DNA of 64,000 nt. It comes from Rhizobium sp. BK602 (lineage in GTDB: Bacteria; Pseudomonadota; Alphaproteobacteria; Rhizobiales; Rhizobiaceae). The stretch is taken from positions 1-64,000 of the forward strand of contig NZ_JACIBC010000011.1 of assembly GCF_014195095.1 (NCBI RefSeq), read 5' to 3'. Made by a program: the position numbers and the translations under genes. Positions 542 to 15,892 of this stretch are shown here, one piece after another. Each line of letters starts with the position of its first letter. Position 1 is the first letter of the stretch. Below the pieces are notes generated by a model. That model worked only from the letters and a program-made list of their open reading frames with translations. It ran no database searches and had not been told where the DNA came from.

Positions 542-1192
542 CTATCCGTAAACTACCTTGCAGACCGCCTCGCATTTGTCGAGATCCAGCCAGCCATTCG
601 TGCGAATGCCCGATTCCATGTCGATCCAATAGAGATCGCCGGCGCAAGCGCCGATGGCAGCGATGATGGCGGCAACATTGTCGGGCTTTATGCCGCCGGA
701 ATAGCCGCAAAATGGTCCGCCTTTTGGAAGCGTTGGCCATGCTTTCGGCGTAGCTCCGGTGCCGAAAGACGTGTCGAACAACCAGTCCAGGCGGGTCTCA
801 TCCGGAAACGCGTCCTTGCACTGAAGCATGGTCCGGACACCCAGCCGCCGACCGAAGCGCCAGCTATTGTCAATTTGCGTGGCCGAACTGCCGGAGAAGC
901 TGTGATTGACCTGAATGCGCTGAAAACCGGTGAGGTCGAGCGATACAGTGTCGGGTGCGTTGGCTATCTTCGATGCCTCCACGCCGCAGACATGGGCGGC
1001 GAGACGCAGGCCTCCGGCTGTCAGAAAGGCTTTGCGCGCTCCCGCATCCGGAAACAGCGGTTTTTCCTCCTGCGCATCATCCACAAGCACGCCCCATTCG
1101 ATCGGATAGCGCGCCGAAAGGCTCTGCAGATCGCTGATCAATCGCGCGTCGTCCAATCCGGTGAAGGCGATAAAGGCAGGCGCCTGGGCCAT
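542..1192 (-). CDS. TrpF-like (phosphoribosylanthranilate isomerase-like) barrel protein
   Basis: A 216-residue cytosolic protein resembling N-(5'-phosphoribosyl)anthranilate isomerase. The C-terminal phosphate-binding features are recognisable: a GGIKPDNV segment near residue 170 and a DMESGIRTNG segment near 195. An LFDTSFGTG segment near 140 carries the Asp corresponding to the TrpF general acid. The N-terminal KICGIT-type motif that supplies the catalytic Cys in TrpF is replaced by IAFTGLDDA, so the Cys seems absent and tryptophan synthesis is unlikely. The ATG at 1192 is chosen because an AGGA ribosome site lies just upstream; an upstream extension to 1279 would run over the promoter. 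It is divergent from the GntR regulator gene and shares its operator, which ties it to the ABC/glycohydrolase/kinase operon. A role in rearranging a phosphosugar amine is inference only. Confidence 0.75.
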   Translation of the reverse strand: MAQAPAFIAFTGLDDARLISDLQSLSARYPIEWGVLVDDAQEEKPLFPDAGARKAFLTAGGLRLAAHVCGVEASKIANAPDTVSLDLTGFQRIQVNHSFSGSSATQIDNSWRFGRRLGVRTMLQCKDAFPDETRLDWLFDTSFGTGATPKAWPTLPKGGPFCGYSGGIKPDNVAAIIAAIGACAGDLYWIDMESGIRTNGWLDLDKCEAVCKVVYG

Positions 1193-1250
1193 GGATGTTC
1201 CTCGATTTGTCGTTTGTGTGGGCATGTGCCTGTTTTGTGAGCTTCTTGGA

Positions 1251-1279
1251 AACATAATGGTACGTACCATATATGTCAA
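1251..1279 (-). promoter_or_regulatory. Promoter of the TrpF-like gene with GntR operator in the spacer
   Basis: Reading the minus strand, TTGACA (1274-1279) is followed after exactly 17 bases by TATGTT (1251-1256), a good sigma-70-type promoter for the gene starting at 1192. The spacer contains the perfect palindrome ATGGTACGTACCAT (1257-1270). The same core recurs at 1333-1344. A repressor bound here would block polymerase. Confidence 0.65.
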
Positions 1280-1323
1280 TTTTGTTCAGATAGGCTGAAA
1301 ACTTGGCGTAGTATGAATTTTTA

Positions 1324-1350
1324 TTGACACACTGGTACGTACCATATAGT
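1324..1350 (+). promoter_or_regulatory. Promoter of the gntR gene with second GntR operator
   Basis: TTGACA (1324-1329) is followed by the palindrome TGGTACGTACCA (1333-1344) and then TATAGT (1345-1350). The spacer is 15 bases if TATAGT is the -10, a little short. The palindrome is identical in its 12-base core to the one at 1258-1269, 75 bases away, and fits the GT...AC symmetry of GntR/HutC-family operators. Autoregulation of gntR is the simplest reading. Confidence 0.55.
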
Positions 1351-1381
1351 TCTAGCAAACAGTCATTTCGGAACTGGTGCG

Positions 1382-2149
1382 ATGGTGGACTTGCTGGACG
1401 AAACGGGTGATCTCGAACTGGCGCAGTCGGGCGTGCCGCTTTACCGGCAATTAGCTGCAAAGCTCAGGGCGGAAATCGAGAGCGGCTCGCGAGGCTCGAA
1501 CGAACCTTTGCCTTCGGAGCGTGATATCGCGGTTCGCTATGCGATGAGCCGGGACACGGTGCGCAAGGCTGTTCGTTTGCTGGAAGAGCAGGGGTTGCTC
1601 TATAGCGAGCACGGTCGGGGAACCTTCGTGGCGCCGTCGTCGGTCAGGGAGATGTCGCGGTTTCTCGACAGCTTCTCGCAGGATACCGAAAAGCGCGGAG
1701 GCGTTGCCGGCCAGGCCATCATCCTCGTCGAGCAAATGCCGGCCAACCTTGCGATTGCGGGTGTTCTCAAGATCGAGCCGCGCCAGATGGTCATGCGCGT
1801 GAAGCGCATTCGCACCGTTGATGGTTCTCCGGTCGGCATTCACGATGCCTATCTGGTGCTTCCGCCGGGTGCTGTCTTTACGGCCGACGATCTGGTTCGA
1901 TCGGGTTCGCTCTACAAGCTGCTTGGCGATCGTTTTGGTCTGAACGCGGCGGAGGGTCTTGAAAGCTTGAGTTCGGTTGCAGCCAATGCCGAGGACGCGA
2001 GCCGGCTCGGTGTGGCTGTCGGGGCGCCCTTGCTCCTGTGCGAGCGCATCACCCTTTCCGAGCGCAGGCAGCCGATGGAATATTGCGAGATGAAATACGT
2101 GTCGAGTTATCGCTACACGACGCGTGTCAACAAATTCAGTCAAAAATAA
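1382..2149 (+). CDS. GntR/HutC-family transcriptional regulator
   Basis: A 255-residue DNA-binding regulator. Residues about 18-85 form the winged helix-turn-helix of the GntR family (PLYRQLAAKLRAEI, then PSERDIAVRYAMSRDTVRKAVRLLEEQGLL and the HGRGTFVA wing). Residues about 100-245 fit the UTRA ligand-binding domain of the HutC subfamily. The gene lies between a divergent TrpF-like gene and a co-oriented transport/catabolism operon, with two copies of a TGGTACGTACCA palindrome in the intergenic region, one inside each promoter. It is therefore probably a ligand-responsive repressor of both arms and of itself. The ligand is unknown; by context it would be a nucleoside- or glycoside-like compound or a phosphorylated product. 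Confidence 0.9.
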   Translation: MVDLLDETGDLELAQSGVPLYRQLAAKLRAEIESGSRGSNEPLPSERDIAVRYAMSRDTVRKAVRLLEEQGLLYSEHGRGTFVAPSSVREMSRFLDSFSQDTEKRGGVAGQAIILVEQMPANLAIAGVLKIEPRQMVMRVKRIRTVDGSPVGIHDAYLVLPPGAVFTADDLVRSGSLYKLLGDRFGLNAAEGLESLSSVAANAEDASRLGVAVGAPLLLCERITLSERRQPMEYCEMKYVSSYRYTTRVNKFSQK

Positions 2150-2177
2150 AAATAGAGCAACCTCAGAGGGTTACGTT

Positions 2178-3254
2178 ATGGGAATGATCAGATTGGGCGC
2201 CGCTTTGCGGCGTGCGCGTACGATTGCCTTGTCCGCCGGCATGGTTCTTGCCGCGATGACGGTGGGCCATGCGGAGGACCTTAATCGTCCGGCGCAGAAC
2301 ATCGTCTACTTTGTCAACGGCACGCTCGGCGACAAATCTTTCTTCGACTCGGCGGAGCGCGGCATCCAGCGCGTCAAAAAAGAGCTGTCGGTTTCGACCC
2401 AGACGGTCGAAGGCGGTGTCGATCCCACCCGTTGGGAAAGCGCGATTATCGACCTCGCGGAGGGTGGTGACTACGATACGATCGTGCTTGGCACCTATAC
2501 GATGGTGCCCATGGTCGAAAAGATCGCGCCGCAGTTTCCCGACATCCGCTTCATCCTCTTTGACGGTGCGGTGGACTATTCCAAATGCAAATGCGGCAAT
2601 GTCTATTCCATTCTCTTCCGGCAGAACGAGGGAGCCTACCTGGCTGGTGTCCTGTCCGCGCGACTGACGCAAGCGGGTATTGCCGATATCGCCGCCGGCA
2701 GTCCGCTGGGTACCGTCGGTGCCATGCAGATCCCCGTCATCGACGACTTCCTGGTCGGCTACGAGGCCGGAGCCAAATCCGTCCTGCCGGATGTCAAGGT
2801 GTTGAAGCAATATGCCAATTCCTTCAGCGATCCGGCGACGGGCAAGGAGATCGCCAAGGCACAATTCGCCCAGGGCGCCGGCATCGTCTTCCAGGTGGCG
2901 GGTGCGACGGGGCAGGGTGTCATCGAGGCCGCAGCCGAGGCCGGGCGTTATGCCATCGGTGTCGATTCCGATCAGGCCCTGATCTATGAAACCTCCCGCC
3001 TGGACACGGCCAAGCGCATCGTCACCTCCGTCATGAAGAATGTTGACAATACCGTCGTTCGCTCTGTCGCTTTGATGAAAGAGGGCAAGCTGCCGCTCGG
3101 CACGGCGGAATCGCTCGGCCTGAAGGAAGGCGCAATCGGTCTGGCGGACAACAAGTTTACTCAAGCCATCGTTCCACCGGCTGTTATGGGCGAGGTCGAC
3201 AAGGTCAAGGCGGATATCATCGCCGGCAAGGTGAAGGTTCCGACCGCCTTCTGA
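2178..3254 (+). CDS. BMP-family ABC transporter substrate-binding protein
   Basis: A 358-residue periplasmic binding protein of the Bmp/PnrA (Med-type) family, whose studied members bind nucleosides. A Sec signal peptide is visible (Arg-rich start, hydrophobic stretch, VGHA/ED cleavage region), with no lipobox. Typical segments include YFVNGTLGDKSFFDSAERGI at the start of the mature domain, an NVYSILFRQNEGAYLAGVLSA segment mid-protein and the IGVDSDQ motif near the C terminus. The ATG at 2178 is preferred because of an AGAGGG ribosome site and because it begins a good signal peptide; an upstream in-frame start overlaps gntR. It is first in an operon with an ATPase and two permeases. Nucleoside-like substrates are the best guess. 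Confidence 0.88.
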   Translation: MGMIRLGAALRRARTIALSAGMVLAAMTVGHAEDLNRPAQNIVYFVNGTLGDKSFFDSAERGIQRVKKELSVSTQTVEGGVDPTRWESAIIDLAEGGDYDTIVLGTYTMVPMVEKIAPQFPDIRFILFDGAVDYSKCKCGNVYSILFRQNEGAYLAGVLSARLTQAGIADIAAGSPLGTVGAMQIPVIDDFLVGYEAGAKSVLPDVKVLKQYANSFSDPATGKEIAKAQFAQGAGIVFQVAGATGQGVIEAAAEAGRYAIGVDSDQALIYETSRLDTAKRIVTSVMKNVDNTVVRSVALMKEGKLPLGTAESLGLKEGAIGLADNKFTQAIVPPAVMGEVDKVKADIIAGKVKVPTAF

Positions 3255-3292
3255 CCGCTTATGGTCTCGTCTCTTGCGAGGAGCGTCCTTCG

Positions 3293-4903
3293 ATGGAGCA
3301 TCATCCTTCTGGCGCCCGCGGAATGGCGCCAGCCATAGAGCTGCGGGGTGTCAGCAAGCGCTATGGCAACGGCACCTTGGCGAACGAGGGCGTGTCGCTG
3401 ACGATCGAGCGCGGCGAGATCCACGCGATTTGCGGTGAGAACGGCGCCGGCAAGTCGACGATCATGAAGATGATCTACGGCCTGATCCAACCGAGCGCCG
3501 GCACCATTCTGATCGAGGGTGTCGAGCGTCATTTCACTCATCCAGGCCAGGCAATCGCAGCCGGCATCGGCATGGTGGCGCAGCATCTGAATCTCGTGCC
3601 CTCTTTCACCATCGCCGAAAATGTCGTGCTCGGTCAGGAACCGTCCGGCCGGGGCGGGCTCCTGAGCCGGGAGGCTAGCATCGTCGCCGTCCGGGAACTG
3701 GCGAAATCCTTTGGGCTTGATGTCGATCCGACCGCACGGGTAAGCGATGTTTCCATCGGGATGCAGCAGCGCACGGAGATACTGAAGACGCTTTATCGTG
3801 GCGCGCGGATCCTGCTGATGGACGAACCGACCGCCGTTCTGACACCGCAGGAAACGGACGAGCTGTTTGCGGCGATCCGCCGGCTGGTTGTGTCGGGCGT
3901 CACGGTCGTCGTTGTCACCCATAAGCTTGCCGAGGTGAAGGCGATTTCCGACCGGCTGACCGTGCTGCGCGATGGCCGGGTGACCGGGCATGCCGATACC
4001 GCCGACATCGATCACAAGACCATCGCCGAGATGATGGTCGGCCGACCGTTGGCGCCGCAGATCGTCAAGCGCATCGACGCGCGCGGTCGAGAGCCGCGTG
4101 TGCGGGTGCGTCAGCTTGGTTATGTCAATGCGCAGGGCAGCGTGCGTTTGTCCGATGTCAATTTCGATCTCGCCGGCGGCGAGATTCTCGGCATTGCCGG
4201 GGTCGAAGGCAATGGGCAGAATTCGCTGGCGCGTGTGCTGAGCGGGCTTGCCGCGCCGCATGCGGGAGGGGGCGATCTCGATGGTATGCCCTTTACCGGC
4301 CGGGGCGTTCGAGCCGCGCGTAAATCCGGTGTGGCGACGGTTCCCGAGGATCGCTTGACCGAGGGTGTCGCGGTCAATCTCGACATCGAGCAGAATATCG
4401 TCGCGACGACCTATTACGGACCGTCCTTCTCTTCCTTCGGCTGCCTGAAGACCGGCGCGATCGGCCAATGGGCCAGGGATCTGGTCAAGCAATTTGGGAT
4501 CAAGACGGATTCGAGCAAGACGCCGGTCGGCGCGCTTTCCGGCGGCAATATGCAAAAGGTGGTCATGGCGCGCGAAATATCGGGCGAACCGAAATTCCTC
4601 ATCGCCGCCCAGCCGACGCGCGGCGTCGATGTCGGTGCGGCCGGCTCGCTGCGGGACGAGCTGGTGGCGCTGCGCGATCGCGGCGCGGCCGTGCTGCTGA
4701 TCTCCGCCGACCTGGAGGAGGTCCTGAGCCTTTCCGACCGGATCGCCGTGCTCTTCAAGGGTGAGATCGTCGCGCATTTCCGCGCCGACACGGCCGACCA
4801 GCGTGAGATCGGCCTCTATATGACCGGGCTGAAGCGCCAGCCGGATGCGGCGGCGAGGCTCGACGCCGCCTTCGCCGCAACTCCACAGGAGGCAATCGCA
4901 TGA
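3293..4903 (+). CDS. Nucleoside/sugar-type ABC transporter ATP-binding protein (two NBDs)
   Basis: A 536-residue tandem ATPase of the RbsA/MglA/YufO type that powers uptake through the two permeases downstream. The first domain has an intact Walker A (GENGAGKS, about residue 45), a modified signature (DVSIGMQQR) and Walker B (ILLMDEPTAVLTP). In the second domain Walker A is degenerate (GVEGNGQNSL), as is common in this family, while the signature LSGGNMQKVVMARE is intact. It ends in an ATGA overlap with the first permease, so the two are translationally coupled. An internal Met ten codons in (MAPAIELRG) could be an alternative start. Confidence 0.9.
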   Translation: MEHHPSGARGMAPAIELRGVSKRYGNGTLANEGVSLTIERGEIHAICGENGAGKSTIMKMIYGLIQPSAGTILIEGVERHFTHPGQAIAAGIGMVAQHLNLVPSFTIAENVVLGQEPSGRGGLLSREASIVAVRELAKSFGLDVDPTARVSDVSIGMQQRTEILKTLYRGARILLMDEPTAVLTPQETDELFAAIRRLVVSGVTVVVVTHKLAEVKAISDRLTVLRDGRVTGHADTADIDHKTIAEMMVGRPLAPQIVKRIDARGREPRVRVRQLGYVNAQGSVRLSDVNFDLAGGEILGIAGVEGNGQNSLARVLSGLAAPHAGGGDLDGMPFTGRGVRAARKSGVATVPEDRLTEGVAVNLDIEQNIVATTYYGPSFSSFGCLKTGAIGQWARDLVKQFGIKTDSSKTPVGALSGGNMQKVVMAREISGEPKFLIAAQPTRGVDVGAAGSLRDELVALRDRGAAVLLISADLEEVLSLSDRIAVLFKGEIVAHFRADTADQREIGLYMTGLKRQPDAAARLDAAFAATPQEAIA

Positions 4904-6024
4904 GTGCATCGTCAAGCACTGCCTCCCGCCTCGTTGCACAGGTCCTGCGTCTCGCTTTTGTCGTCACTGCCGCTCTCGGCTGTGGCTTCGTCCTGACGGT
5001 TCTGGTCAGCGCCGAGCCGTTGAAAGCCTATGGGGCGTTGCTCACCGGCGCCTGGCCGGATTTCGGCTGGAACAGTGCGGGACAGTTCACGGTTCGCCGG
5101 ATGACCCGGCTTGGTTCGCTGCTCGAAGACGCGACGACATTGACGCTGTTGGGTCTCGCCGTCGCTATCCCTTTTCGCGCCCGGCAATTCTCCATGGGGG
5201 CGGATGGCCAGCTTTTCCTTGGCGCGATCGCCGCGGCGGCCGTCAGCCTTGCGCTGGGCGGTCCGGCGATCATCGTCATTCCCGCCGCCTGCCTGGCGGC
5301 GATGACGACCGGTTTCCTCTGGGGCCTGCTGCCGGGCGTGCTGAAAGCGCGTTTCGGCGCCAGCGAGATCGTCACCACCCTGATGCTGAACGTCATCGCC
5401 GTTCAGTTCTACCGCCTGGTCATCACCTATTGGCTTCGCGACCCCTCCGCCGGCTTTATCACCACGCCGTCACTGCCGGACGCGGCCGTGCTGACGGCGC
5501 TGCTCGCCCGCACCAATGTGACGGTCATGGGTTTTGTAGCGATACTCGCCGCCGTGGCCGCATGGTTCCTGATCAAGCGGACGACTGTCGGCTACGAGAT
5601 CACCCTTGTTGGCGAGAATTCGCGATTTGCCGAACAGGCCGGCATCCCCGTGAAGCGCGCCACGGCGCTCTCGATGGCTCTCGGTGGCATCTTTGCCGGC
5701 CTTGCCGGTTTCCATACATCGAATGCGCTTTTGAAAGCCCTGCCGGTCGATCTCGCACCCGGTCTCGGCTTCGAGGGTATCGTGGTGGCGCTGCTCGCCC
5801 GCAACAATCCGCTCGTAATCCCGATCGTGGCCATCCTCTATGCCTATCTTCGGATCGGCGCGCAGGTGATGGAGCGCAGCTCCGATGTCACGCGCGAGAT
5901 GGTCATGATCATCCAGGCCTTCATCATCCTGTTCGTCATCGCCGAGCGCTTCGGCCCGACCCTGCTGACGGGCTGGCTGCGGGCGCGATCATCTGCGAGG
6001 GCCGGAAAGGAGGTGCGTGCATGA
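4900..6024 (+). CDS. ABC transporter permease (BMP/nucleoside type), subunit 1
   Basis: A 374-residue inner-membrane permease of the branched-chain/ribose-type superfamily as found in BMP-type nucleoside importers (YufP-like). It has about nine hydrophobic segments. The stretch FRARQFSMGADGQLFLGAI near residue 90 and the GFEGIVVALLARNNPL segment near 295 are characteristic of this permease family. It overlaps the ATPase gene at its start and the second permease gene at its end by four bases each, and has a clear AGGAGG ribosome site. It forms a heterodimeric channel with the next product. Confidence 0.88.
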   Translation: MSASSSTASRLVAQVLRLAFVVTAALGCGFVLTVLVSAEPLKAYGALLTGAWPDFGWNSAGQFTVRRMTRLGSLLEDATTLTLLGLAVAIPFRARQFSMGADGQLFLGAIAAAAVSLALGGPAIIVIPAACLAAMTTGFLWGLLPGVLKARFGASEIVTTLMLNVIAVQFYRLVITYWLRDPSAGFITTPSLPDAAVLTALLARTNVTVMGFVAILAAVAAWFLIKRTTVGYEITLVGENSRFAEQAGIPVKRATALSMALGGIFAGLAGFHTSNALLKALPVDLAPGLGFEGIVVALLARNNPLVIPIVAILYAYLRIGAQVMERSSDVTREMVMIIQAFIILFVIAERFGPTLLTGWLRARSSARAGKEVRA

Positions 6025-7022
6025 GCACCGAATTCGTCCTTTGGGGAACATTCCTCGGAACGCTCCTTGCCGCCATATTGCGCGCTTCCGCGCCGATCAT
6101 CCTATCGGCCTTCGGCGGTCTGATTTCGGATCTTGCCGGCAGTGTCAACATTGCGCTCGAAGGTATCATGCTGGTCGCGGCCTTCTTTGGCGTTATCGCG
6201 TCGGCCTATTCGGCGATCTGGTTTCCCGAAGCACCGCTCTGGCTGCATCCGTGGATGGGTTGCCTTGCCGGCCTGATCGCGGGCACGGTGATTGCCGGCG
6301 TGCTCGCGGTCTTTCACCTCGAGCTTGGCGCCGACATCATTGTCGCCGGCGTCGGCATCAATATCCTGGCCTCCGGCCTGACGGTCTTCCTGCTTGTCTC
6401 GATCACCGGCGACAAAGGGTCGACCGCGACTTTGACCAGCTATGCATTGCCGTCGCTTCATATTCCTTTCGTCGATCATGTCCCGATCATCGGGACGATC
6501 CTCAACGGTGACGGCCTGGTCGGCCACAACATCGTCGTTTACGCGGCGCTTCTCGCCACGCCGCTCCTGTCGCTATTGCTGTATCGCACCCGCTTCGGGC
6601 TGAGACTCCGCGCGGTCGGCGAGAACCCGGATGCGGCCCTTGCGGCCGGCATCTCGGTCAAGCGCGTGCAGTATTCGGCTCTGTTGCTGAGCGGGTTGCT
6701 GGCGAGCCTCGGCGGCGTGTTCCTGAGCATGGGCTATCTCACGCTGTTCCAGGCCGACATGACCGGCGGTCGCGGTTTCCTGGCTCTGGCCGCGGTGTTT
6801 CTCGGTGGTCGCCGACCGCTCGGTACACTCGTCGCCGCTGTTATCTTCGGCGCATCGACCGTGTTTGCCGCACAGTTGGGCAGCTACAACGTGCCAAGCC
6901 AGGTCGTCTTCATGATCCCGCCGGCACTCACCATTCTCGCTCTGGTGTTCTTCAATATTCAGCAGAGGCGCCGGGTGGCCAAGCGCATCGCCAGGGCTGC
7001 GGTCGTTCTGCGCCACGCCTGA
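6021..7022 (+). CDS. ABC transporter permease (BMP/nucleoside type), subunit 2
   Basis: A 333-residue permease paired with the preceding one (YufQ-like). The ISDLAGSVNIALEGIMLVAAFFGV segment near the N terminus and TGGRGFLALAAVFLGGRRPLGT near residue 255 are family hallmarks. The ATG at 6021 is used because it follows GGAAAGGAGG and overlaps the previous stop (ATGA). The same frame stays open far upstream within the previous gene, but that extension has no membrane-protein character and is not coding. It completes the importer; the next genes encode the enzymes thought to act on the cargo. Confidence 0.88.
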   Translation: MSTEFVLWGTFLGTLLAAILRASAPIILSAFGGLISDLAGSVNIALEGIMLVAAFFGVIASAYSAIWFPEAPLWLHPWMGCLAGLIAGTVIAGVLAVFHLELGADIIVAGVGINILASGLTVFLLVSITGDKGSTATLTSYALPSLHIPFVDHVPIIGTILNGDGLVGHNIVVYAALLATPLLSLLLYRTRFGLRLRAVGENPDAALAAGISVKRVQYSALLLSGLLASLGGVFLSMGYLTLFQADMTGGRGFLALAAVFLGGRRPLGTLVAAVIFGASTVFAAQLGSYNVPSQVVFMIPPALTILALVFFNIQQRRRVAKRIARAAVVLRHA

Positions 7023-7065
7023 TGCCGGGAGTGTCGGCAAATGAACGATAAGAAACGGACCAGGG

Positions 7066-8133
7066 ATGACAACAAACAAGTTTTACGATTCGATCCTCGC
7101 CTCCCTTGCGCTTGCCGGCATCGGCGATGCGCTCGGCGCGCCAACGGAGCTTTGGGGGATAGACGAGATCTTCGCCCGTTACGGAGGGCTTGCCGATCGC
7201 TTCGAGGAGCCGACGCCGGACACGTTCGCGGGTGCCAACAACGGCAAGCGCGGCGAGGTCACCGATGACGCCAGCCAGATGTATTATCTTGCCCGTGCCT
7301 TGATAAGGGCAGGCGGCCAGCTCGATCAAGCAGGCTGGGTTGCTTGCCTGCTCGATTGGGCCGAGACCTCGCCGAAGGCCGGATTCATGGGGCCGACCAC
7401 TGCGGCGATCGTCGCCGCCTTGCGGGCAGGCGAAAGTCTTGACCATGTCGGCGTCGTCGGCACATCGCAACGCAAGTTGCCGACCATGGGCAACACCAAT
7501 GGCGCCGCCATGCGCGTTGCGCCTGTCGGTCTCGTGCATCCCGGCAATGTTGTCGCCGCTTGCCAACAGGCGCTGGTGACGTGCCTGCCGTCGCACGACA
7601 CCGATGTCGCCATAGCATCCGCCTGCGCGATCGCTGCCGGTACGGCTACGGCGCTTGTGGAACGCGATATCGGCGCTGTTGTTCGGGCTTGCTGGGAGGG
7701 TAGTGCGATCGGCGCGCGTTTGGCGGCCGGGCATGCGCGCGTGCCGCCGGGTCCGCGGTTCTCGACGCGGCTGGACATGGCGTTGGAGATTGCAGCGCGA
7801 GCGGCGGATGATCGCCAATTTCTGTACGATCTCGATGCGACCATTGGCGCTTCAATGCTCGCCTGCGAATCCGTGCCGGCGGCGATTGCCGTCTTTGCCT
7901 ATGCGAAAGGCGATCCGCTGCGCACGGTGGCACTGGCGGCAAGTGTGGGCAATGACACGGATACCGTCGCCACTATGGCTGGTGCGATGGCGGGCGCCAT
8001 GACCGGCACGGCAAAACTGCCGCAAACGCTTTACCGCGAGTTCATCGCGGTCAATGATGCAGAGTACCATTTGCAGAAGCTTGCGGCCGGGTTGGCCGAT
8101 ATCGCCTTGGAGAATGACAGCCATGGTCGATAA
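7066..8133 (+). CDS. ADP-ribosylglycohydrolase-family protein
   Basis: A 355-residue cytosolic protein of the ADP-ribosylglycohydrolase (DraG/ARH) superfamily, whose members use a di-magnesium site to hydrolyse N- or O-glycosidic bonds to (ADP-)ribose. The metal-site motifs are visible: GDALGAPTE at about residues 20-28, TDD at 66-68, a GNTNGAAMR segment near 145 and GNDTDT at 295-300. The second Gly of the usual GGDTDT is replaced by Asn. It sits directly after a nucleoside-type importer and overlaps the following PfkB kinase gene by 11 bases. An attractive inference is that it removes a ribosyl group from an imported N-glycoside, not that it reverses protein ADP-ribosylation. The actual substrate is unknown. 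Confidence 0.85.
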   Translation: MTTNKFYDSILASLALAGIGDALGAPTELWGIDEIFARYGGLADRFEEPTPDTFAGANNGKRGEVTDDASQMYYLARALIRAGGQLDQAGWVACLLDWAETSPKAGFMGPTTAAIVAALRAGESLDHVGVVGTSQRKLPTMGNTNGAAMRVAPVGLVHPGNVVAACQQALVTCLPSHDTDVAIASACAIAAGTATALVERDIGAVVRACWEGSAIGARLAAGHARVPPGPRFSTRLDMALEIAARAADDRQFLYDLDATIGASMLACESVPAAIAVFAYAKGDPLRTVALAASVGNDTDTVATMAGAMAGAMTGTAKLPQTLYREFIAVNDAEYHLQKLAAGLADIALENDSHGR

Positions 8134-9091
8134 CAGAACCGAACTTGCGACACTCTTCCAGAGAAATGCCGACCGCCCCTTCGATGTGCTCGCCTATGGC
8201 GACCCGAACATCGACTATGTCTTCGAGGCCGCGCGCGTGCCCTTGGCAGACGAAAAACTTCTTGGCCGACGGCTCGGCACATTTGCCGGCGGCACCGTGG
8301 CCAATGTCGCCAGCGCTGCGAGCCGGCTGGGTGCTCGCGTCGCGGCCTACGGGCGCGTCGGTGGGGATGCCGACGGTCAGCTGCTGTTGACGGCCAACGA
8401 GGAGGCCGGCGTGTCGAACGCATTCCTGCGCGTCGTGGAGCAGTCGACGGCGGCGGCAACGATTATTGTCGATGCTGCCGGCGAAAAGGCATTGGTCTAT
8501 GCGCCTATGTCGGGTGAAGCGGTGGACGAGCCGATCGTGTCGGCGGCGCTACGGCAAAGCCGGCTGCTTTATACCATGCCCTATGATCTCGCCGAATTCC
8601 GGCAGATTACCGCCCTGGCGCATGCCCACGGCGTTGCCGTCGCCATCGATATCGAGGCGGCCGTCGCGCCGACCCGCGAACGCCTCGATGCCTTGCTGGA
8701 ATGCTCCGATATCGTCTTCATGAACGAAGGCGGTTTTCGCGCCACGTTGGACGGAGAGATCACCGTTGAAACCATTCGCCCGCTTCTGGACAAAGGCCCG
8801 CAATTGATTGTCGTTACCATGGGGGCCGCCGGCGCTATCGCCTGCAGCCGCGCCGCATGGGCCGAACACCCGGCCTTTCCGGTCAAAATGGTCGATGCAA
8901 CTGGCGCAGGGGATTGTTTCAACGGCGCTTTCCTGGCCGCCTGCTTCAACGACCGTACCCTCCGGGAGAGTCTGGTCTTTGCCTGCGCGGCGGCAAGCAT
9001 CGCGGTTTCGGCAGTCGGCGCGCGAACCGCGTTGCCGACGACAAGGGAGGTCGAGGGCTTGATTTTGAATCACTCGGCGGGGAGAACATGA
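8123..9091 (+). CDS. PfkB-family carbohydrate (ribokinase-like) kinase
   Basis: A 322-residue sugar/nucleoside kinase. The N-terminal GG-containing motif (GTFAGGTVANVASAASRLGARVAAYGRVGGDADG) and the C-terminal signature DATGAGDCFNGAF (residues 258-270, with the catalytic Asp at 264) are both intact, so it should be active. The start at 8123 is preferred because GGAG lies ten bases upstream; an ATG nine bases earlier is too close to it. The gene overlaps the end of the glycohydrolase gene, indicating coupled expression. By context it phosphorylates the sugar or nucleoside delivered by the BMP transporter and glycohydrolase. Confidence 0.88.
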   Translation: MVDNRTELATLFQRNADRPFDVLAYGDPNIDYVFEAARVPLADEKLLGRRLGTFAGGTVANVASAASRLGARVAAYGRVGGDADGQLLLTANEEAGVSNAFLRVVEQSTAAATIIVDAAGEKALVYAPMSGEAVDEPIVSAALRQSRLLYTMPYDLAEFRQITALAHAHGVAVAIDIEAAVAPTRERLDALLECSDIVFMNEGGFRATLDGEITVETIRPLLDKGPQLIVVTMGAAGAIACSRAAWAEHPAFPVKMVDATGAGDCFNGAFLAACFNDRTLRESLVFACAAASIAVSAVGARTALPTTREVEGLILNHSAGRT

Positions 9092-10376: not shown

Positions 10377-11561
10377 ATGAATACCGAAAAAATCATCATC
10401 TTCGACACCACATTGCGTGACGGCGAACAAAGCCCCGGCATCAACCTCGACGCCAGTGAAAAGGTCGAGATCGCGCTTATGCTCGAAGGGCTGAAGGTCG
10501 ACGTGATCGAGGCCGGCTTTGCCGTCTCCAGTCCAGGCGAGTTTGACGCGATCAAAGCCGTGGCGCGCGCTGTCAAGGACAGTACGATTTGCAGCCTGAG
10601 CCGGGCGGTCGAGCGCGACATCGACCTGACGGCGGAAGCTGTTTCCGGTGCGGCGTCGTCCCGCATCCATATCGTGCTGGCGACCTCGCCCATTCACATG
10701 AAATACAAGTTGCAAATGACACCGGAAAACGTGCTCGAGCACGCCGTTCGCGCCGTGCTCCACGCGCGGCGCTATTCCGAGGACATCGAGTTTTCCTGCG
10801 AGGACGCGAGCCGGTCGGAGCCGGAGTTTCTCGCGCGTTTCGTGGAACAGGTGATCAAGGCCGGCGCGACCACGGTCAGCCTGCCGGACACCGTCGGCTA
10901 TGCCACGCCGCACGAATACGGCAAGCTGTTCACCTATCTTCGCAATACCGTACCGAACGCCGACAGGGCCGTGTTTTCCGCGCATTGTCACAACGATCTG
11001 GGCATGGCTGTTTCCAACTCGCTGGAAGCGACCCGGCAGGGTGCGCGCCAGATCGAATGCACGATCAATGGCATCGGCGAACGCGCGGGCAATGCGTCGC
11101 TCGAAGAGATCGTCATGGCGCTGCACACCCGCGAGGATTTCTTCCGGTGCCAGACGTCGATCGAAACCCGCCGGTTGACCGCTGCATCCCGGCTCGTCTC
11201 GGAGATCACCGGCTTCGTTGTGCAGCCGAACAAGGCGATCGTCGGCAGGAATGCCTTCTCGCACCAGTCCGGCATTCACCAGGACGGCATGCTGAAGAAC
11301 CCGTCGACCTATCAGATCATGACGGCGGCGGAGGTCGGCGCCGACGAATATCGGCTGGTGCTCGGAAAGAATTCGGGTCGTAACGGCTTTCGCATGTGCA
11401 TGCGCACGCTGGGCGTCGAGTTTGGCTCCGATGCCGATCTGGATCTCGCTTTCTCGCGTTTCAAGGATATCGCCGATCGCAAGGCATCGCTTTGCGATGA
11501 GGATCTTCTGGCGACGGTTGCGGGCATGGAAGCGCTCTCCCAGGAAAAGCGCATCGCATAA
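10377..11561 (+). CDS. 2-isopropylmalate synthase-like enzyme lacking the regulatory domain
   Basis: A 394-residue LeuA-type aldolase that would condense acetyl-CoA with a 2-oxo acid. The TIM-barrel motifs are intact: FDTTLRDGEQSPG at 9-21 (catalytic Arg14, metal ligand Asp15), the ATSPIHMKYKL segment near 102, HCHNDLGMA at 203-211 (metal-binding His203 and His205) and the GIGERAGNASLEE motif. The protein stops after the linker subdomains, so the roughly 130-residue C-terminal LeuA allosteric domain is missing and leucine feedback is not expected. The length resembles homocitrate or other specialised synthases. The ATG at 10377 follows a GGGAGAG ribosome site. The next gene, 138 bases on, encodes a ThDP enzyme, suggesting a dedicated short pathway rather than bulk leucine synthesis. 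Confidence 0.82.
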   Translation: MNTEKIIIFDTTLRDGEQSPGINLDASEKVEIALMLEGLKVDVIEAGFAVSSPGEFDAIKAVARAVKDSTICSLSRAVERDIDLTAEAVSGAASSRIHIVLATSPIHMKYKLQMTPENVLEHAVRAVLHARRYSEDIEFSCEDASRSEPEFLARFVEQVIKAGATTVSLPDTVGYATPHEYGKLFTYLRNTVPNADRAVFSAHCHNDLGMAVSNSLEATRQGARQIECTINGIGERAGNASLEEIVMALHTREDFFRCQTSIETRRLTAASRLVSEITGFVVQPNKAIVGRNAFSHQSGIHQDGMLKNPSTYQIMTAAEVGADEYRLVLGKNSGRNGFRMCMRTLGVEFGSDADLDLAFSRFKDIADRKASLCDEDLLATVAGMEALSQEKRIA

Positions 11562-11699
11562 TTATGCTTCCAGGCCATGCAATCGGGATCGTCTGCGTGG
11601 CGGAGCCGTGCTTGCCTCCGGGCTCGGGTCGGTTTGGGCAAACACGCGTCAATATCTTGCGGAATTCAGGAACAGGGATCATCGCGGAAAGGCGAGCAA

Positions 11700-13475
11700 A
11701 TGACGGTGAATCTTGCAGTCGAAACGGCAGGAGATGTTCGGCTCGTCAAGCCGAAAACAGGGTATGAATTCCTGATCGACACACTCAGATCCTGGCATGT
11801 GCGTCACTATGCCGGTGTCACGGGGGGAGGGGTCATCCATTTGCTCAAACATCTCGAGCCGATGGTCCTTCCCGATGACGATGCCGAACGCCCGGTCTTT
11901 TTCAATATTGGAGAGTATGTCGCCGGCTTCATTCCCCTGGGATATTATCTGGCGAGCGGGAAAATCAGTGCGGCCATTGCAACGACAGGAGCCGCAACGC
12001 GGCTGCTGACCTGCGGCCTGAGTGACGCGAAGTTGCACAATATTCCCGCTATCTACCTCATTCCGCTCAGTCCGGCGGAGACGCGACACCGCGCACCGCT
12101 GCAGGACACCAGCCCGGAGGGCGCCGATGTCGTGGCTCAGTTGAAGGCCGAGCTGCCGTCCGGCACATTCGTCTTGGATGATCCGGACCATATCGGCGAA
12201 CAACTTGAGCAGGCCCGCAAACATCTCGATCAAGGCTCCCCCATCGCACTCCTGATGCCGCCGGAGGTGCTCGGAAAGATGATGCCTGAGCCGGTTTATA
12301 TGCCATGGCGCGGCGGCTCCATCGCAAAGCCGAACAAGATCGATCAAGGGTCCCTTGCTCATTTCCTGGCTGAGTTCCCGCGGCAATCGGCTGGGCGTCG
12401 GGTGATCGTGCTCGCCGGGGAAGAGGCGGCCATGTATCAACACATGCCCATGCTCACCACACGTTTATGCAAGGCATTACAGGCGCCTATCGTCTGGAGC
12501 ATAAACGGGGCGAATGCGGTGGCGCGCAACAATAGCTTCGGTTTCGGCTATCTGGGCTTTGGCGGCAATGATCGTGCGACGCAGCTCTGGAGAAGCCTCG
12601 GCCCCGACGATATCGTCATTACGCTTGGGTTTTGCCCTGACGAGTATACATTGAACTTCTCCGACATACCCGCCCATACGACATGGAATTTCACCAACCT
12701 GACCGCCCCATACGGCAGCGTTGGGGGCGAGTTTCGGCATCGTGTGCGCGGCGAATATTTCGATGTGCGAGGGCCGATCGATCAGGTGCTGAGCGAAGTG
12801 ATCGGCCGGATCGAGAATGTCCGTCCACAGCGGCCCCCGGCACCGGCTTTTATGGTCGATCTCAATGATCGCGAGATCCTGCCGCCGCGCGCCGGGACAA
12901 TCGATATCGCCCAATTTTACCAGGAACTCGATCGTCTGTGGCTGCCGGGAAGCATTGCATTCGACGATGTATGCCTTGCCTACAAAGACCGTCAATATGT
13001 CACGCAGCGCCCGCATCCGAACGTCCGCTTTCATTCGCTTTATCGCGGTTCGGCCATGGGCGGGGCATTCGGAACGGCAATCGGCGCAAAGCTTGCAAAG
13101 CCGGAGGCGACGATCTTCGCCTTCACGGGCGACGGGTGCTTCCGGTTGATTGCCGGTTGCCTGGCCGAAGCGCGGTCGTTGGGGATCGTCCTGTTCGTGC
13201 TGGACAACGGCGCACTCGGCATCATGGTGCAGGGCCTGCCCGTGGTCATTCCCGACCATTCGTCCTCCCGCTATCACAGCGATCTGCACCGCATCGACTT
13301 TGGAGCGATGGCGCGCGCATGCGGCTGGGAAAGCCGCAAGCTGATGCCGGATCTGAGCAATCTGGCCGAGATCATGCACGAAAGCTACAGTCCCGGTCAT
13401 CCATCCATATTGGTTGAGGTGCCAGTCGACGCAGAGCAGGTGGTGGGACAAAATCCACGGGCTAACAATCTGTAG
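11700..13475 (+). CDS. Thiamine diphosphate-dependent enzyme (acetolactate-synthase-like)
   Basis: A 591-residue cytosolic enzyme with the three-domain layout of the pyruvate oxidase/acetolactate synthase family. The N-terminal PYR domain carries the conserved Glu in IGEYVAGFIPLGYYLASGK near residue 65, followed by a middle domain. The C-terminal PP domain has the ThDP/metal motif GDGCF...DN near residues 477-505; the usual NN pair is DN here. Sequence around these motifs is divergent from ordinary IlvB, IolD or sulfoacetaldehyde enzymes, so the substrate is not assigned. The ATG at 11700 follows GGAAAGG; the frame is open upstream but has no better start. It follows the LeuA-like gene on the same strand, so decarboxylation or carboligation of a 2-oxo acid made by that synthase is plausible. 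Confidence 0.75.
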   Translation: MTVNLAVETAGDVRLVKPKTGYEFLIDTLRSWHVRHYAGVTGGGVIHLLKHLEPMVLPDDDAERPVFFNIGEYVAGFIPLGYYLASGKISAAIATTGAATRLLTCGLSDAKLHNIPAIYLIPLSPAETRHRAPLQDTSPEGADVVAQLKAELPSGTFVLDDPDHIGEQLEQARKHLDQGSPIALLMPPEVLGKMMPEPVYMPWRGGSIAKPNKIDQGSLAHFLAEFPRQSAGRRVIVLAGEEAAMYQHMPMLTTRLCKALQAPIVWSINGANAVARNNSFGFGYLGFGGNDRATQLWRSLGPDDIVITLGFCPDEYTLNFSDIPAHTTWNFTNLTAPYGSVGGEFRHRVRGEYFDVRGPIDQVLSEVIGRIENVRPQRPPAPAFMVDLNDREILPPRAGTIDIAQFYQELDRLWLPGSIAFDDVCLAYKDRQYVTQRPHPNVRFHSLYRGSAMGGAFGTAIGAKLAKPEATIFAFTGDGCFRLIAGCLAEARSLGIVLFVLDNGALGIMVQGLPVVIPDHSSSRYHSDLHRIDFGAMARACGWESRKLMPDLSNLAEIMHESYSPGHPSILVEVPVDAEQVVGQNPRANNL

Positions 13476-13688: not shown

Positions 13689-14507
13689 TCAGATTCGAGT
13701 CTGCGGAGATTGATCGACTGGGTGCATGGCACTGGCGCTGTCATCTTTCAACGTCACCCCGCTGGCGCCCGAGCGAAAGGCATTATCGACAAGCCACGCC
13801 ATTTTGAATGCCGCAGCCTGATAGCTGAGACCGCCCGTCCGTATATTTGAGACGCAGTTACGGTTGGCATCCGTTCGATCTTGTCCTGGATCCAAAGTGA
13901 TGTATGCACCAAGGCTGTCAGCCGCTGATAGGCCGGGTCTCTCGCCAACCAGAATGATCGACAAGCGCGCCTTGCAGAGCGCGCCAATCTCATCAGCAAT
14001 CGCAACTCGTGCCTGTTTGACGAATACGAGTGGTCCCAGTGACAGATGCATGGATCTTAAGCGGGGGACCAAGTGAGAAAGCAAGGCTGCTGCGCCTTCC
14101 TGAACCGCCTTTGACGAGAGGCCGTCGGCGACAACGATGATGACGTCCTCGCTTTTGCTTCTGCGCTCCGACAAAGCCGTTCGAGACCATTCGGAAAGGC
14201 GACGCCCGAGATCTGGTCTCCTAAGATAAGTCTGTCTGTCGTTGCAAGCGCTCTCTACGACTATTTGCTCAAGCTCCAGTTCTGCGCAGCTCTGCCGGAG
14301 CGTGTCAAAATCCAATGGAGCGTGGACGGCATCGCGTGCGCGTGCGTGGTCGAAGGCAAAATCGAGTGTGGCCCGCGTCGGAAGGCTGGAACCGGCGCGG
14401 CCAAGCCCCAACCGTGCCTCGGTGGCATCAGCAGGTATCCGTACGATGTCGGGAGTGACAAAATCCTCCACCTGAGCGGAGTGGCCTTCAATCTCACCAG
14501 TGGTCAT
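13689..14507 (-). CDS. eutC: Ethanolamine ammonia-lyase small subunit
   Basis: The 272-residue small subunit of AdoCbl-dependent ethanolamine ammonia-lyase, which converts ethanolamine to acetaldehyde and ammonia. The conserved core is clear: LGLGRAGSSLPTRATLDFAFDHARARDAVH near residues 32-62, the IVVADGLSS motif, and ILVGERPGLSAADSLGAYITLDP...RNCVSNIR near 185-225, which forms much of the cobalamin-binding surface. It overlaps eutB by four bases (ATGA) and is last in the minus-strand operon. No microcompartment shell, EutA/EutG/EutE or cobalamin reactivase is present in the window. Confidence 0.92.
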   Translation of the reverse strand: MTTGEIEGHSAQVEDFVTPDIVRIPADATEARLGLGRAGSSLPTRATLDFAFDHARARDAVHAPLDFDTLRQSCAELELEQIVVESACNDRQTYLRRPDLGRRLSEWSRTALSERRSKSEDVIIVVADGLSSKAVQEGAAALLSHLVPRLRSMHLSLGPLVFVKQARVAIADEIGALCKARLSIILVGERPGLSAADSLGAYITLDPGQDRTDANRNCVSNIRTGGLSYQAAAFKMAWLVDNAFRSGASGVTLKDDSASAMHPVDQSPQTRI

Positions 14508-15892
14508 GCGGATAGCCTCATGATGCCCGAATTCAGCGGGTGATTATTTTGCAGAGGCTTGAGGCTGCCGTCAGCCGATGTGATGTCCATCTTGAGCAGC
14601 CATTCCGCGAATTCCGGGGATCGGCGAACGCCCAGTAGATCACGAGCGTAAAGCTGATCGTGAAACGATGTGGACTGATAGTTCAGCATGATATCATCGG
14701 CGCCGGGCACCGTAATGATGAAGTTTATTCCGGCCGATGCGAGAAGCGTCAGGAGCACATCCATGTCGTCCTGGTCGGCTTCGGCATGGTTGGTGTAGCA
14801 GATGTCGCAACCCATCGGTAAGCCCATCAGCTTTCCGCAGAAATGATCCTCAAGGCCCGCGCGGATGATCTGCTTTCCGTCATAAAGATATTCGGGGCCG
14901 ATGAAGCCGACCACCGTGTTGACCAGCAGCGGCGCGAAGGGGCGGCATGTCGCATAGGCACGTGCCTCGCATGTTTGCTGATCGACGCCATGATGCGCAG
15001 CAGCAGAGAGGCAGGAGCCTTGTCCGGTTTCGAAATACATCACGTTTTGGCCAACCGTGCCCCTATTTGCGGACAGGCCGGCATCATAGGCCTCGCGCAA
15101 CGTTGACAGAGAAATGCCGAAGCTCGCGTTGGCGGCTTCTGTGCCAGCGACTGACTGGAAAACCAGATCGACCGGGACATTACTTTCGATGAGTTTGATC
15201 GACGTGGTCGCGTGCGTCAGCACGCAGGACTGAGTTGGGATATCGTAACGGGTAATCAGCTCGTCCAGAAGATGAATGATTTGCGCGACCGTTGCCGGAG
15301 AATCCGACGCGGGATTGATGCCGATCACGGCATCTCCGCATCCATAGGTCAGTCCCTCGATGGTCGACGCGAGAATGCCGCGCGGGTCGTCGGTCGGATG
15401 GTTGGGTTGCAGGCGAGTCGCCATGGTACCGGCGAGGCCGATCGTGTTCCGAAACCGGGTCGTGACCTGGATCTTTGCCGCGACCTTAAGCAGATCCTGG
15501 TTGCGCATCAGTTTCGAGACGGCGGCGACCATTTCCGGTGTAAGTCCCGGCGCAAGACGCGCCAGCCGATCGCTCGTGGCGTGATCCGAAAGAAGCCAGT
15601 CCCGAAACTCCCCGACGCAAAGGTGAGAGACTGGAGCGAAGGCGACCGGATCATGCGTATCGACAATGAGCCTGGTGACCTCATCCTGCTCGTAGGGAAT
15701 GAGAAGGTCGGAAAGGAAGGTCTTGAGCGGAACGTCGGCCAGGCGGATGCGGGCGGCGGCCATTTCCTCCGCCGTTTCGGCTGCGATGCCCGCGAGAAAG
15801 TCTCCTGACCTCGGCGGAGTTGCCTTCGCCATCAACTTCTTCAGGTCCCGGAAAGCCCAAGTCTTATTCGCCAGTGTCGTTCTGTAGGTCAC
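14504..15892 (-). CDS. eutB: Ethanolamine ammonia-lyase large (catalytic) subunit
   Basis: The 462-residue TIM-barrel catalytic subunit that binds ethanolamine and pairs with EutC around AdoCbl. Diagnostic stretches include GDAVIGINPASDSPATV near residues 197-213, the MYFETGQGSCLSAAAHHGVDQQTCEARAYA segment near 302-331, and the closing GCDICYTNHAEADQDDMDVLLTLL and VPGADDIMLNYQSTSFHD blocks. Length is normal for the family. It overlaps both neighbours by four bases, so DadA-like, EutB and EutC are translationally coupled. The coupling to an amino-acid-type importer suggests ethanolamine or a related amino alcohol arrives from outside. Confidence 0.94.
   Translation of the reverse strand: MTYRTTLANKTWAFRDLKKLMAKATPPRSGDFLAGIAAETAEEMAAARIRLADVPLKTFLSDLLIPYEQDEVTRLIVDTHDPVAFAPVSHLCVGEFRDWLLSDHATSDRLARLAPGLTPEMVAAVSKLMRNQDLLKVAAKIQVTTRFRNTIGLAGTMATRLQPNHPTDDPRGILASTIEGLTYGCGDAVIGINPASDSPATVAQIIHLLDELITRYDIPTQSCVLTHATTSIKLIESNVPVDLVFQSVAGTEAANASFGISLSTLREAYDAGLSANRGTVGQNVMYFETGQGSCLSAAAHHGVDQQTCEARAYATCRPFAPLLVNTVVGFIGPEYLYDGKQIIRAGLEDHFCGKLMGLPMGCDICYTNHAEADQDDMDVLLTLLASAGINFIITVPGADDIMLNYQSTSFHDQLYARDLLGVRRSPEFAEWLLKMDITSADGSLKPLQNNHPLNSGIMRLSA

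Follow-up and report, generated by a model that had tools for sequence, protein, structure and literature searches.

The closest described relative of the locus considered here is the yegTUV unit of Escherichia coli K-12, together with its GntR-type regulator YegW (GgaR), for which the published account describes repression of yegTUV by YegW/GgaR, release of GgaR from DNA by ADP-glucose, and raised glycogen in the mutant (PMC10819704). In that account, Saito et al. treat yegT, yegU and yegV as being without clear function, and ADP-glucose as an effector candidate chosen from predicted functions (PMC10819704). The present locus occupies 542-9091 of the window, i.e. the whole 64,000-nucleotide stretch analysed (Rhizobium sp. 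BK602, contig NZ_JACIBC010000011.1, positions 1 to 64,000 of the forward strand), and it has a regulator, an ADP-ribosylglycohydrolase (ARH)-family enzyme and a PfkB kinase together with a BMP-type ABC importer and a TrpF-fold protein. What is supported is a co-regulated unit, conserved in alpha- and betaproteobacteria and carried by bacteria of soil and plant habitats, that combines nucleoside-type import with an ARH enzyme, a PfkB kinase and a TrpF-fold enzyme. That it serves as a regulon, inducible by its substrate, for the salvage of a nucleotide or nucleoside-like riboside from outside the cell, probably one containing adenine, is given slightly better than an even chance; the best reading is that an unusual part of that compound is what needs ARH, PfkB and the isomerase. 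The components are as follows.

542..1192, minus strand: TrpF-fold protein of 216 amino acids, putative phosphosugar isomerase (Pfam PRAI, AlphaFold2 model, nearest solved folds)
1251..1279, minus strand: promoter-like site TTGACA-17-TATGTT of the TrpF-like gene, with the operator inside its spacer (10/12 match; shuffles mean 0.4)
1258..1269: predicted operator TGGTACGTACCA, copy 1 (palindrome)
1333..1344: predicted operator TGGTACGTACCA, copy 2, before gntR (palindrome; preceded by TTGACA, with a poor second hexamer, 8/12)
1382..2149, plus strand: GntR/UTRA regulator, presumed repressor of both arms (Pfam GntR and UTRA; operator co-occurrence)
2178..3254, plus strand: BMP/PnrA-type substrate-binding protein (Pfam Bmp, 206 bits; solved relatives PnrA, BmpA, BmpD)
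3293..4903, plus strand: ABC transporter ATPase with two ATP-binding domains (Pfam)
4900..6024, plus strand: ABC permease 1 (Pfam BPD_transp_2)
6021..7022, plus strand: ABC permease 2 (Pfam BPD_transp_2)
7066..8133, plus strand: ARH-family enzyme, presumed riboside hydrolase (Pfam, 176 bits; invariant motifs; fold)
8123..9091, plus strand: PfkB/ribokinase-like sugar kinase (Pfam, 165 bits)

The eight genes form two divergent arms, the TrpF-fold gene on the minus strand and gntR, bmp, the ATPase, both permeases, ARH and pfkB on the plus strand, where from the ATPase onward genes overlap or are closely spaced; the ARH gene is followed directly by pfkB, which it overlaps at 8123-8133. Open frames are present at these coordinates, and every protein exceeds the curated Pfam cut-offs (PRAI 25.8 bits against a cut-off of 22.7; GntR 63.5, UTRA 87.9, ABC_tran 164, BPD_transp_2 131 and 119, with Bmp, ADP_ribosyl_GH (PF03747) and PfkB at the scores listed), so that the cassette of nucleoside-type importer, ARH homologue, PfkB kinase and TrpF-like barrel beside a GntR regulator, as given in an earlier sequence-only reading, is borne out by both matches and coordinates. 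The start of the TrpF-like gene is most likely the ATG at 1192 rather than the mechanical TTG at 1279.

A scan of genome contigs for the ARH protein, by exact peptide patterns and so reaching close relatives only, gave 27 loci in other genomes, or 28 with the window, from Rhizobium, Azospirillum, Nitrospirillum, Herbaspirillum, Duganella, Massilia, Ramlibacter, Yoonia and other genera. With ARH present in 28/28 by design and genes absent from cut contigs scored as misses, permeases are found in 27, PfkB in 26, the ATPase in 24, BMP in 23 and GntR in 19. Accessory genes, counted with a single query each (45% coverage, E 1e-8) and named from Pfam, include an inosine-uridine-type nucleoside hydrolase in 20, a TonB receptor in 15 (gene clustering places TonB in more loci than this single-query count), a phytase-like PF13449 gene in 12, a TrpF-like gene in 7, a double-SIS gene in 5, a PhoD-like gene in 4 and two or more PfkB genes in 4. 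The neighbourhood conservation that the sequence-only reading had proposed as a check holds for permeases, kinase and binding protein; the TrpF-like gene, at 7/28 within the counted span and one more just beyond it in a Duganella genome, is a less constant member. The unit is patchy, with an ARH at E 1e-40 or better in 6/199 genomes of the same family and at 35-39% identity in the five besides the window's own. On the import side, the BMP protein retains both base-stacking Phe residues of PnrA/BmpD (F55 in 22/23 and F216 in 23/23 orthologues) and carries the GVDxDQ-like motif of its PnrA/BMP relatives; the direction of transport is presumably inward.

Co-regulation is indicated by the palindrome. 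Two exact copies of TGGTACGTACCA lie between the divergent arms, 75 bases apart, and the 6.33-Mb genome of the window has no third site at up to one mismatch, against 7 for the reversed control motif; the regulator, with its predicted operator at this locus only, would then be of the few-target yegW type. At the same tolerance the operator is present in 19/19 loci that have gntR and in 0/9 that do not, the latter being five cut contigs (L005, L006, L007, L017, L022) and four Nitrospirillum loci (L008, L015, L025, L028). The loci hold 27 exact sites and 39 with at most one mismatch, for which shuffling left 0.0 and 0.4; a hypergeometric figure computed for these loci counts related loci as independent and should not be read as a probability. 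In 14 whole cassette genomes there are 27 exact sites, spread over 13 of the 14 and every one on the contig of the cassette, with none for the reversed control. In several relatives, too, the palindrome lies between -35- and -10-like hexamers, e.g. TTGACA-18-TACAAT in L018. Several sites with at most one mismatch fall within genes, e.g. L010:5014 and L018:7924. For the string GGTACGTACC together with GntR no paper was found, a weak negative since most subscription papers lay outside the search.

Sites away from the core extend the regulon. One is at a pfkB about 55 kb from the cassette in the L019 genome (L193); in the L012 genome (L195) a site precedes a TonB gene by about 0.5 kb; one is at a PF13449 gene in Rhizobacter (L009); and Ramlibacter (L192) has sites at a 5'-nucleotidase and at a PF13449 gene whose divergent neighbour encodes a phosphonate-type binding protein. 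In Duganella (L173) the operator is linked to a TrpF-like gene, whose product is 55% identical to that of the window, and which is divergent from a TonB receptor, adenosine deaminase and transaldolase-family gene, with an AMP nucleosidase adjoining. The presence in the regulon of 5'-nucleotidase, nucleoside hydrolase, adenosine deaminase and TonB receptors points to external nucleotides.

The same inventory, i.e. a nucleoside-type importer, nucleoside hydrolase, ribokinase-like kinases and adenosine deaminase, would also suit a system that simply scavenges ordinary nucleosides, ARH and the TrpF-like protein then having secondary or repair functions. Against that, ARH (constant by the design of the search) is followed by PfkB in 26/28 loci while the nucleoside hydrolase is found in only 20/28, and the cassette in the window has no nucleoside hydrolase, ordinary ones being encoded elsewhere in its genome; this explanation is judged unlikely. 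A role in controlling glycogen or ADP-glucose metabolism, which has been proposed for GgaR (YegW) and yegTUV of E. coli, draws on the common GntR, ARH and PfkB core and on the ADP-glucose and glycogen effects cited at the outset. It has to contend with the way in which ADP-glucose came to be selected there, with the 5'-nucleotidase, nucleoside hydrolase and adenosine deaminase of the extended regulons, and with the lack of any glycogen-family match among the scanned genes, which cover only part of the neighbourhoods; its probability is accordingly set very low.

For the ARH enzyme, the model resembles MJ1187 in fold (Z 37.5), and a chain from the chloroplast FtsHi complex (8xks) ties with it at Z 37.4; ARH3 reaches 36.2 and DraG 34.3. 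T66, D67, D68, D297 and D299, which make up the TDD and DxD metal-site motifs, and E28 are invariant in 24 rows. These features would be in keeping with reversal of protein ADP-ribosylation, the activity of DraG and ARH1/ARH3, by an enzyme whose only tie to the sugar importer is their common operon. Scores against the curated NCBIfam models are, however, far under the cut-offs (DraG 42.7 bits vs 337.05; Tri1 36.8 vs 490), and importer and kinase are constantly alongside ARH, which leaves this alternative quite improbable. A DRAT partner gave no match in the genome of the window, in a search whose positive control was likewise silent. A riboside hydrolase seems the better description of the ARH protein. 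Its neighbour, PfkB, has ribokinase as its nearest NCBIfam model (144.6 bits, below the cut-off of 299.65), with 66.3 bits against fructoselysine 6-kinase (cut-off 247) and 27.1 against pseudouridine kinase (cut-off 540); no PsuG-type match was found among the nine window genes scanned.

For the TrpF-like protein, the chemistry proposed earlier is rearrangement of a phosphosugar amine. TrpF, the phosphoribosylanthranilate (PRA) isomerase, has a catalytic Cys at the end of strand 1 and a catalytic Asp. The AlphaFold2 model (predicted local distance difference test, pLDDT, 94.1) has PRA isomerase or TrpC-TrpF chains in its ten best VIA-align rows (Z 16.4-19.1), the next structural family, PdxJ (Z 16.1), tying with the weakest of the TrpF rows (16.4). 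Asp140 lines up with the Asp of the LLD motif in 4aaj and 1lbm, the residue that is catalytic in TrpF, and both phosphate-loop motifs (GG and SG) are retained. The Cys position corresponds to Thr11, in a global profile alignment that is weak (probability 46%); the first strand of the model (7-11) has no Cys at all, and Thr is at position 11 in 96% of 95 aligned rows. Residues invariant in 49 aligned rows include G12, L36, H67, C69, Q94, N96, Q124, D140, S142, W189, D191 and E193, a pattern that looks like an enzyme pocket distinct from that of TrpF.

A second consideration is the slot between arh and pfkB, which holds a TrpF-like gene in L006 and a double-SIS gene in L007, L008, L015, L025 and L028, these double-SIS bearers being Azospirillum and Nitrospirillum (e.g. 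L007:3868-4917 and L008:10059-11105). Against the models of GlmS and NagB-II, their nearest, the SIS proteins score 42-48 bits (cut-offs 418-430). That one slot takes two unrelated folds of phosphosugar type would make isomerisation a probable companion of the kinase step. An N-glycoside or Amadori route, in which PfkB phosphorylates an imported N-ribosyl amine that the TrpF-like protein rearranges, with a GlmS/NagB-II-type double-SIS protein instead in Nitrospirillum, could appeal to the retained TrpF fold, Asp and phosphate-loop motifs, and to GlmS and NagB-II being amino-sugar enzymes. Since there is no Cys at the catalytic position of TrpF and an unrelated double-SIS protein takes the same slot, TrpF-type Amadori chemistry is not supported, and the missing strand-1 Cys and the protein's own invariant set likewise speak against the earlier proposal of it, fold and Asp notwithstanding. 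With the SIS and fructoselysine kinase scores well short of their cut-offs, and regulon genes that indicate nucleotides, such a route is thought rather improbable.

The TrpF-like family extends well beyond the cassette. The protein of the window has no NCBIfam or PHROG match, and the possibility that its gene is the housekeeping trpF was rejected, a separate PF00697 protein (151 bits) being encoded on contig C7. Relatives are found on 15 plasmid records, 4 phage records and 84 IMG/VR contig stretches (80 kept as loci), and in 5/289 genomes of the class with the window's own counted; in a tree of the 95 rows, the seven cassette members require two origins, the second, L006, being a long branch. 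The phage and plasmid barrels (L044-L123 from IMG/VR, L030-L037 from plasmids) are hypothetical where annotated, and active-site-like residues are strictly kept in them. Their neighbours, mostly unannotated or else genes of general DNA replication and modification, e.g. for cytosine methylase, Dam and a DnaA-C domain, gave no clear clue to function, and the literature search, with its limit on subscription papers, found nothing relevant on phage PRA-isomerase-like proteins. The L012 genome has a second TrpF-like gene (L174:8688-9347), whose four scanned neighbours have no Pfam match.

From the placement and conservation of the sites, the GntR protein would sit on TGGTACGTACCA at both divergent promoters and repress them until a pathway metabolite releases it. 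In fuller versions of the system, phosphatases outside the cell may prepare the compound and TonB receptors bring it in, after which the BMP ABC importer, going by its family, would carry the dephosphorylated glycoside into the cell. The ARH-family enzyme could then hydrolyse a ribosyl-type bond resistant to ordinary nucleoside hydrolases, PfkB could phosphorylate the sugar so released, and isomerisation of the phosphosugar toward the pentose-phosphate route could fall to the TrpF-fold protein or, in Azospirillum and Nitrospirillum, to the double-SIS protein. The ordinary nucleoside part would be split by nucleoside hydrolase, whether encoded in the cassette, as in 20/28 loci, or elsewhere, as in the genome of the window.

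A more specific candidate, on which little probability is placed, is a ribosyl-adenosine compound with an O-glycosidic ribose-ribose bond, for example what is left of poly(ADP-ribose), or of pRib-AMP, a TIR signal of plants, once the phosphates are gone. It is suggested by the ARH3-like fold, the two glycosidase classes, the phosphatases and the adenosine deaminase. Phosphatases would strip phosphates outside the cell, TonB and BMP would import the product, an ARH3-like enzyme would cut the ribose-ribose bond, and use of the remainder would fall to nucleoside hydrolase, deaminase and PfkB kinases. If so, bacteria of soil and roots would feed on a signal of plant immunity and remove it as a side effect, and yegTUV, at present an orphan operon, would gain a relative of assigned function.

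Several observations weigh against the riboside salvage regulon as set out above. One concerns the base-side Asn that follows the SF motif of BMP proteins, which is Asn in all five aligned solved relatives and in BmpD belongs to the base-binding network (PMC7093131), whereas it is replaced in 23/23 orthologues of the window protein (Phe in 22, Tyr in 1), pocket positions having been mapped by manual count on the alignment. A plain purine nucleoside therefore need not be the ligand, and such a pocket would suit a modified base or a glycoside of larger size. Neither a TrpF-like nor an SIS gene is present within the counted span in 16/28 loci, and the SIS-bearing loci have neither operator nor gntR. 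The operator-linked adenosine deaminase and 5'-nucleotidase are each from a single genome; operator-like sites are also found near an NnrS gene with no evident link (L201:7035 and 7059, to 7070) and by a 1622-amino-acid open frame and genes without Pfam match (L194:14434 and 14558, to 14569), and the second TrpF-like copy of the L012 genome has no operator within the 16 kb covered.

From a practical perspective, the BMP protein is a direct handle on the ligand. ARH and PfkB modules recur with different importers, and here a single palindrome delimits a regulon of theirs; in addition, a metabolic context emerges for the TrpF-like family of phages and plasmids, to which none of the searched libraries gives a name. 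Just downstream of the cassette, the window has an HMGL gene of homocitrate-synthase-like type and, after it, a gene for a thiamine-diphosphate enzyme (10377-13475) and, on the minus strand, the ethanolamine ammonia-lyase genes eutC and eutB (13689-15892).

Compared part by part with known systems, the TrpF-fold protein shares with TrpF the barrel (Z 19.1 to 1nsj), the Asp and the GG/SG motifs, and differs in having no Cys at the catalytic position closing strand 1, an invariant set of its own, and a true TrpF encoded separately in the genome. PnrA, BmpA and BmpD with their ABC importers share the Pfam Bmp family, both stacking Phe residues and the GVDxDQ-like motif with the binding protein, in which, however, Phe or Tyr replaces the base-side Asn of PnrA/BmpD and which is itself linked to ARH, PfkB and an isomerase. 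The ARH protein has the family match over cut-off, the fold and the metal-site motifs of MJ1187, ARH3 and DraG, and is set apart from DraG and Tri1 by scores far below the curated cut-offs and by its place in an import and kinase operon. With E. coli K-12 yegTUV and YegW/GgaR there are a common GntR/UTRA regulator (28% identity) with few or single targets, ARH (32% to YegU), PfkB (23% to YegV) and the inclusion of a nucleoside-type transporter, which in E. coli is YegT, an MFS nucleoside:H+ symporter, rather than a BMP ABC importer; yegTUV has no TrpF-like gene, and a palindrome scan of the yegT promoter (L029 1566-1830) showed no TGGTACGTACCA-like site. Distant ARH/PfkB pairs use other importers again, an SBP_bac_8-type ABC system (L166, L163) or a BPD_transp_2 permease (L165), and the ARH of one further genome adjoins a purine/cytosine permease (L164). 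The GntR, ARH and PfkB combination, as in yegTUV/yegW, is thus of a known yet unsolved kind, no substrate for the enzymes of such modules having been found in the literature (again a weak negative, for the reason given above). The label of a possible undescribed pathway, used in the sequence-only reading, fits only in that the functions of the yegTUV enzymes are unproven; what sets the present variant apart is its import by a BMP system, a regulon defined by the operator, and the TrpF-like/SIS step.

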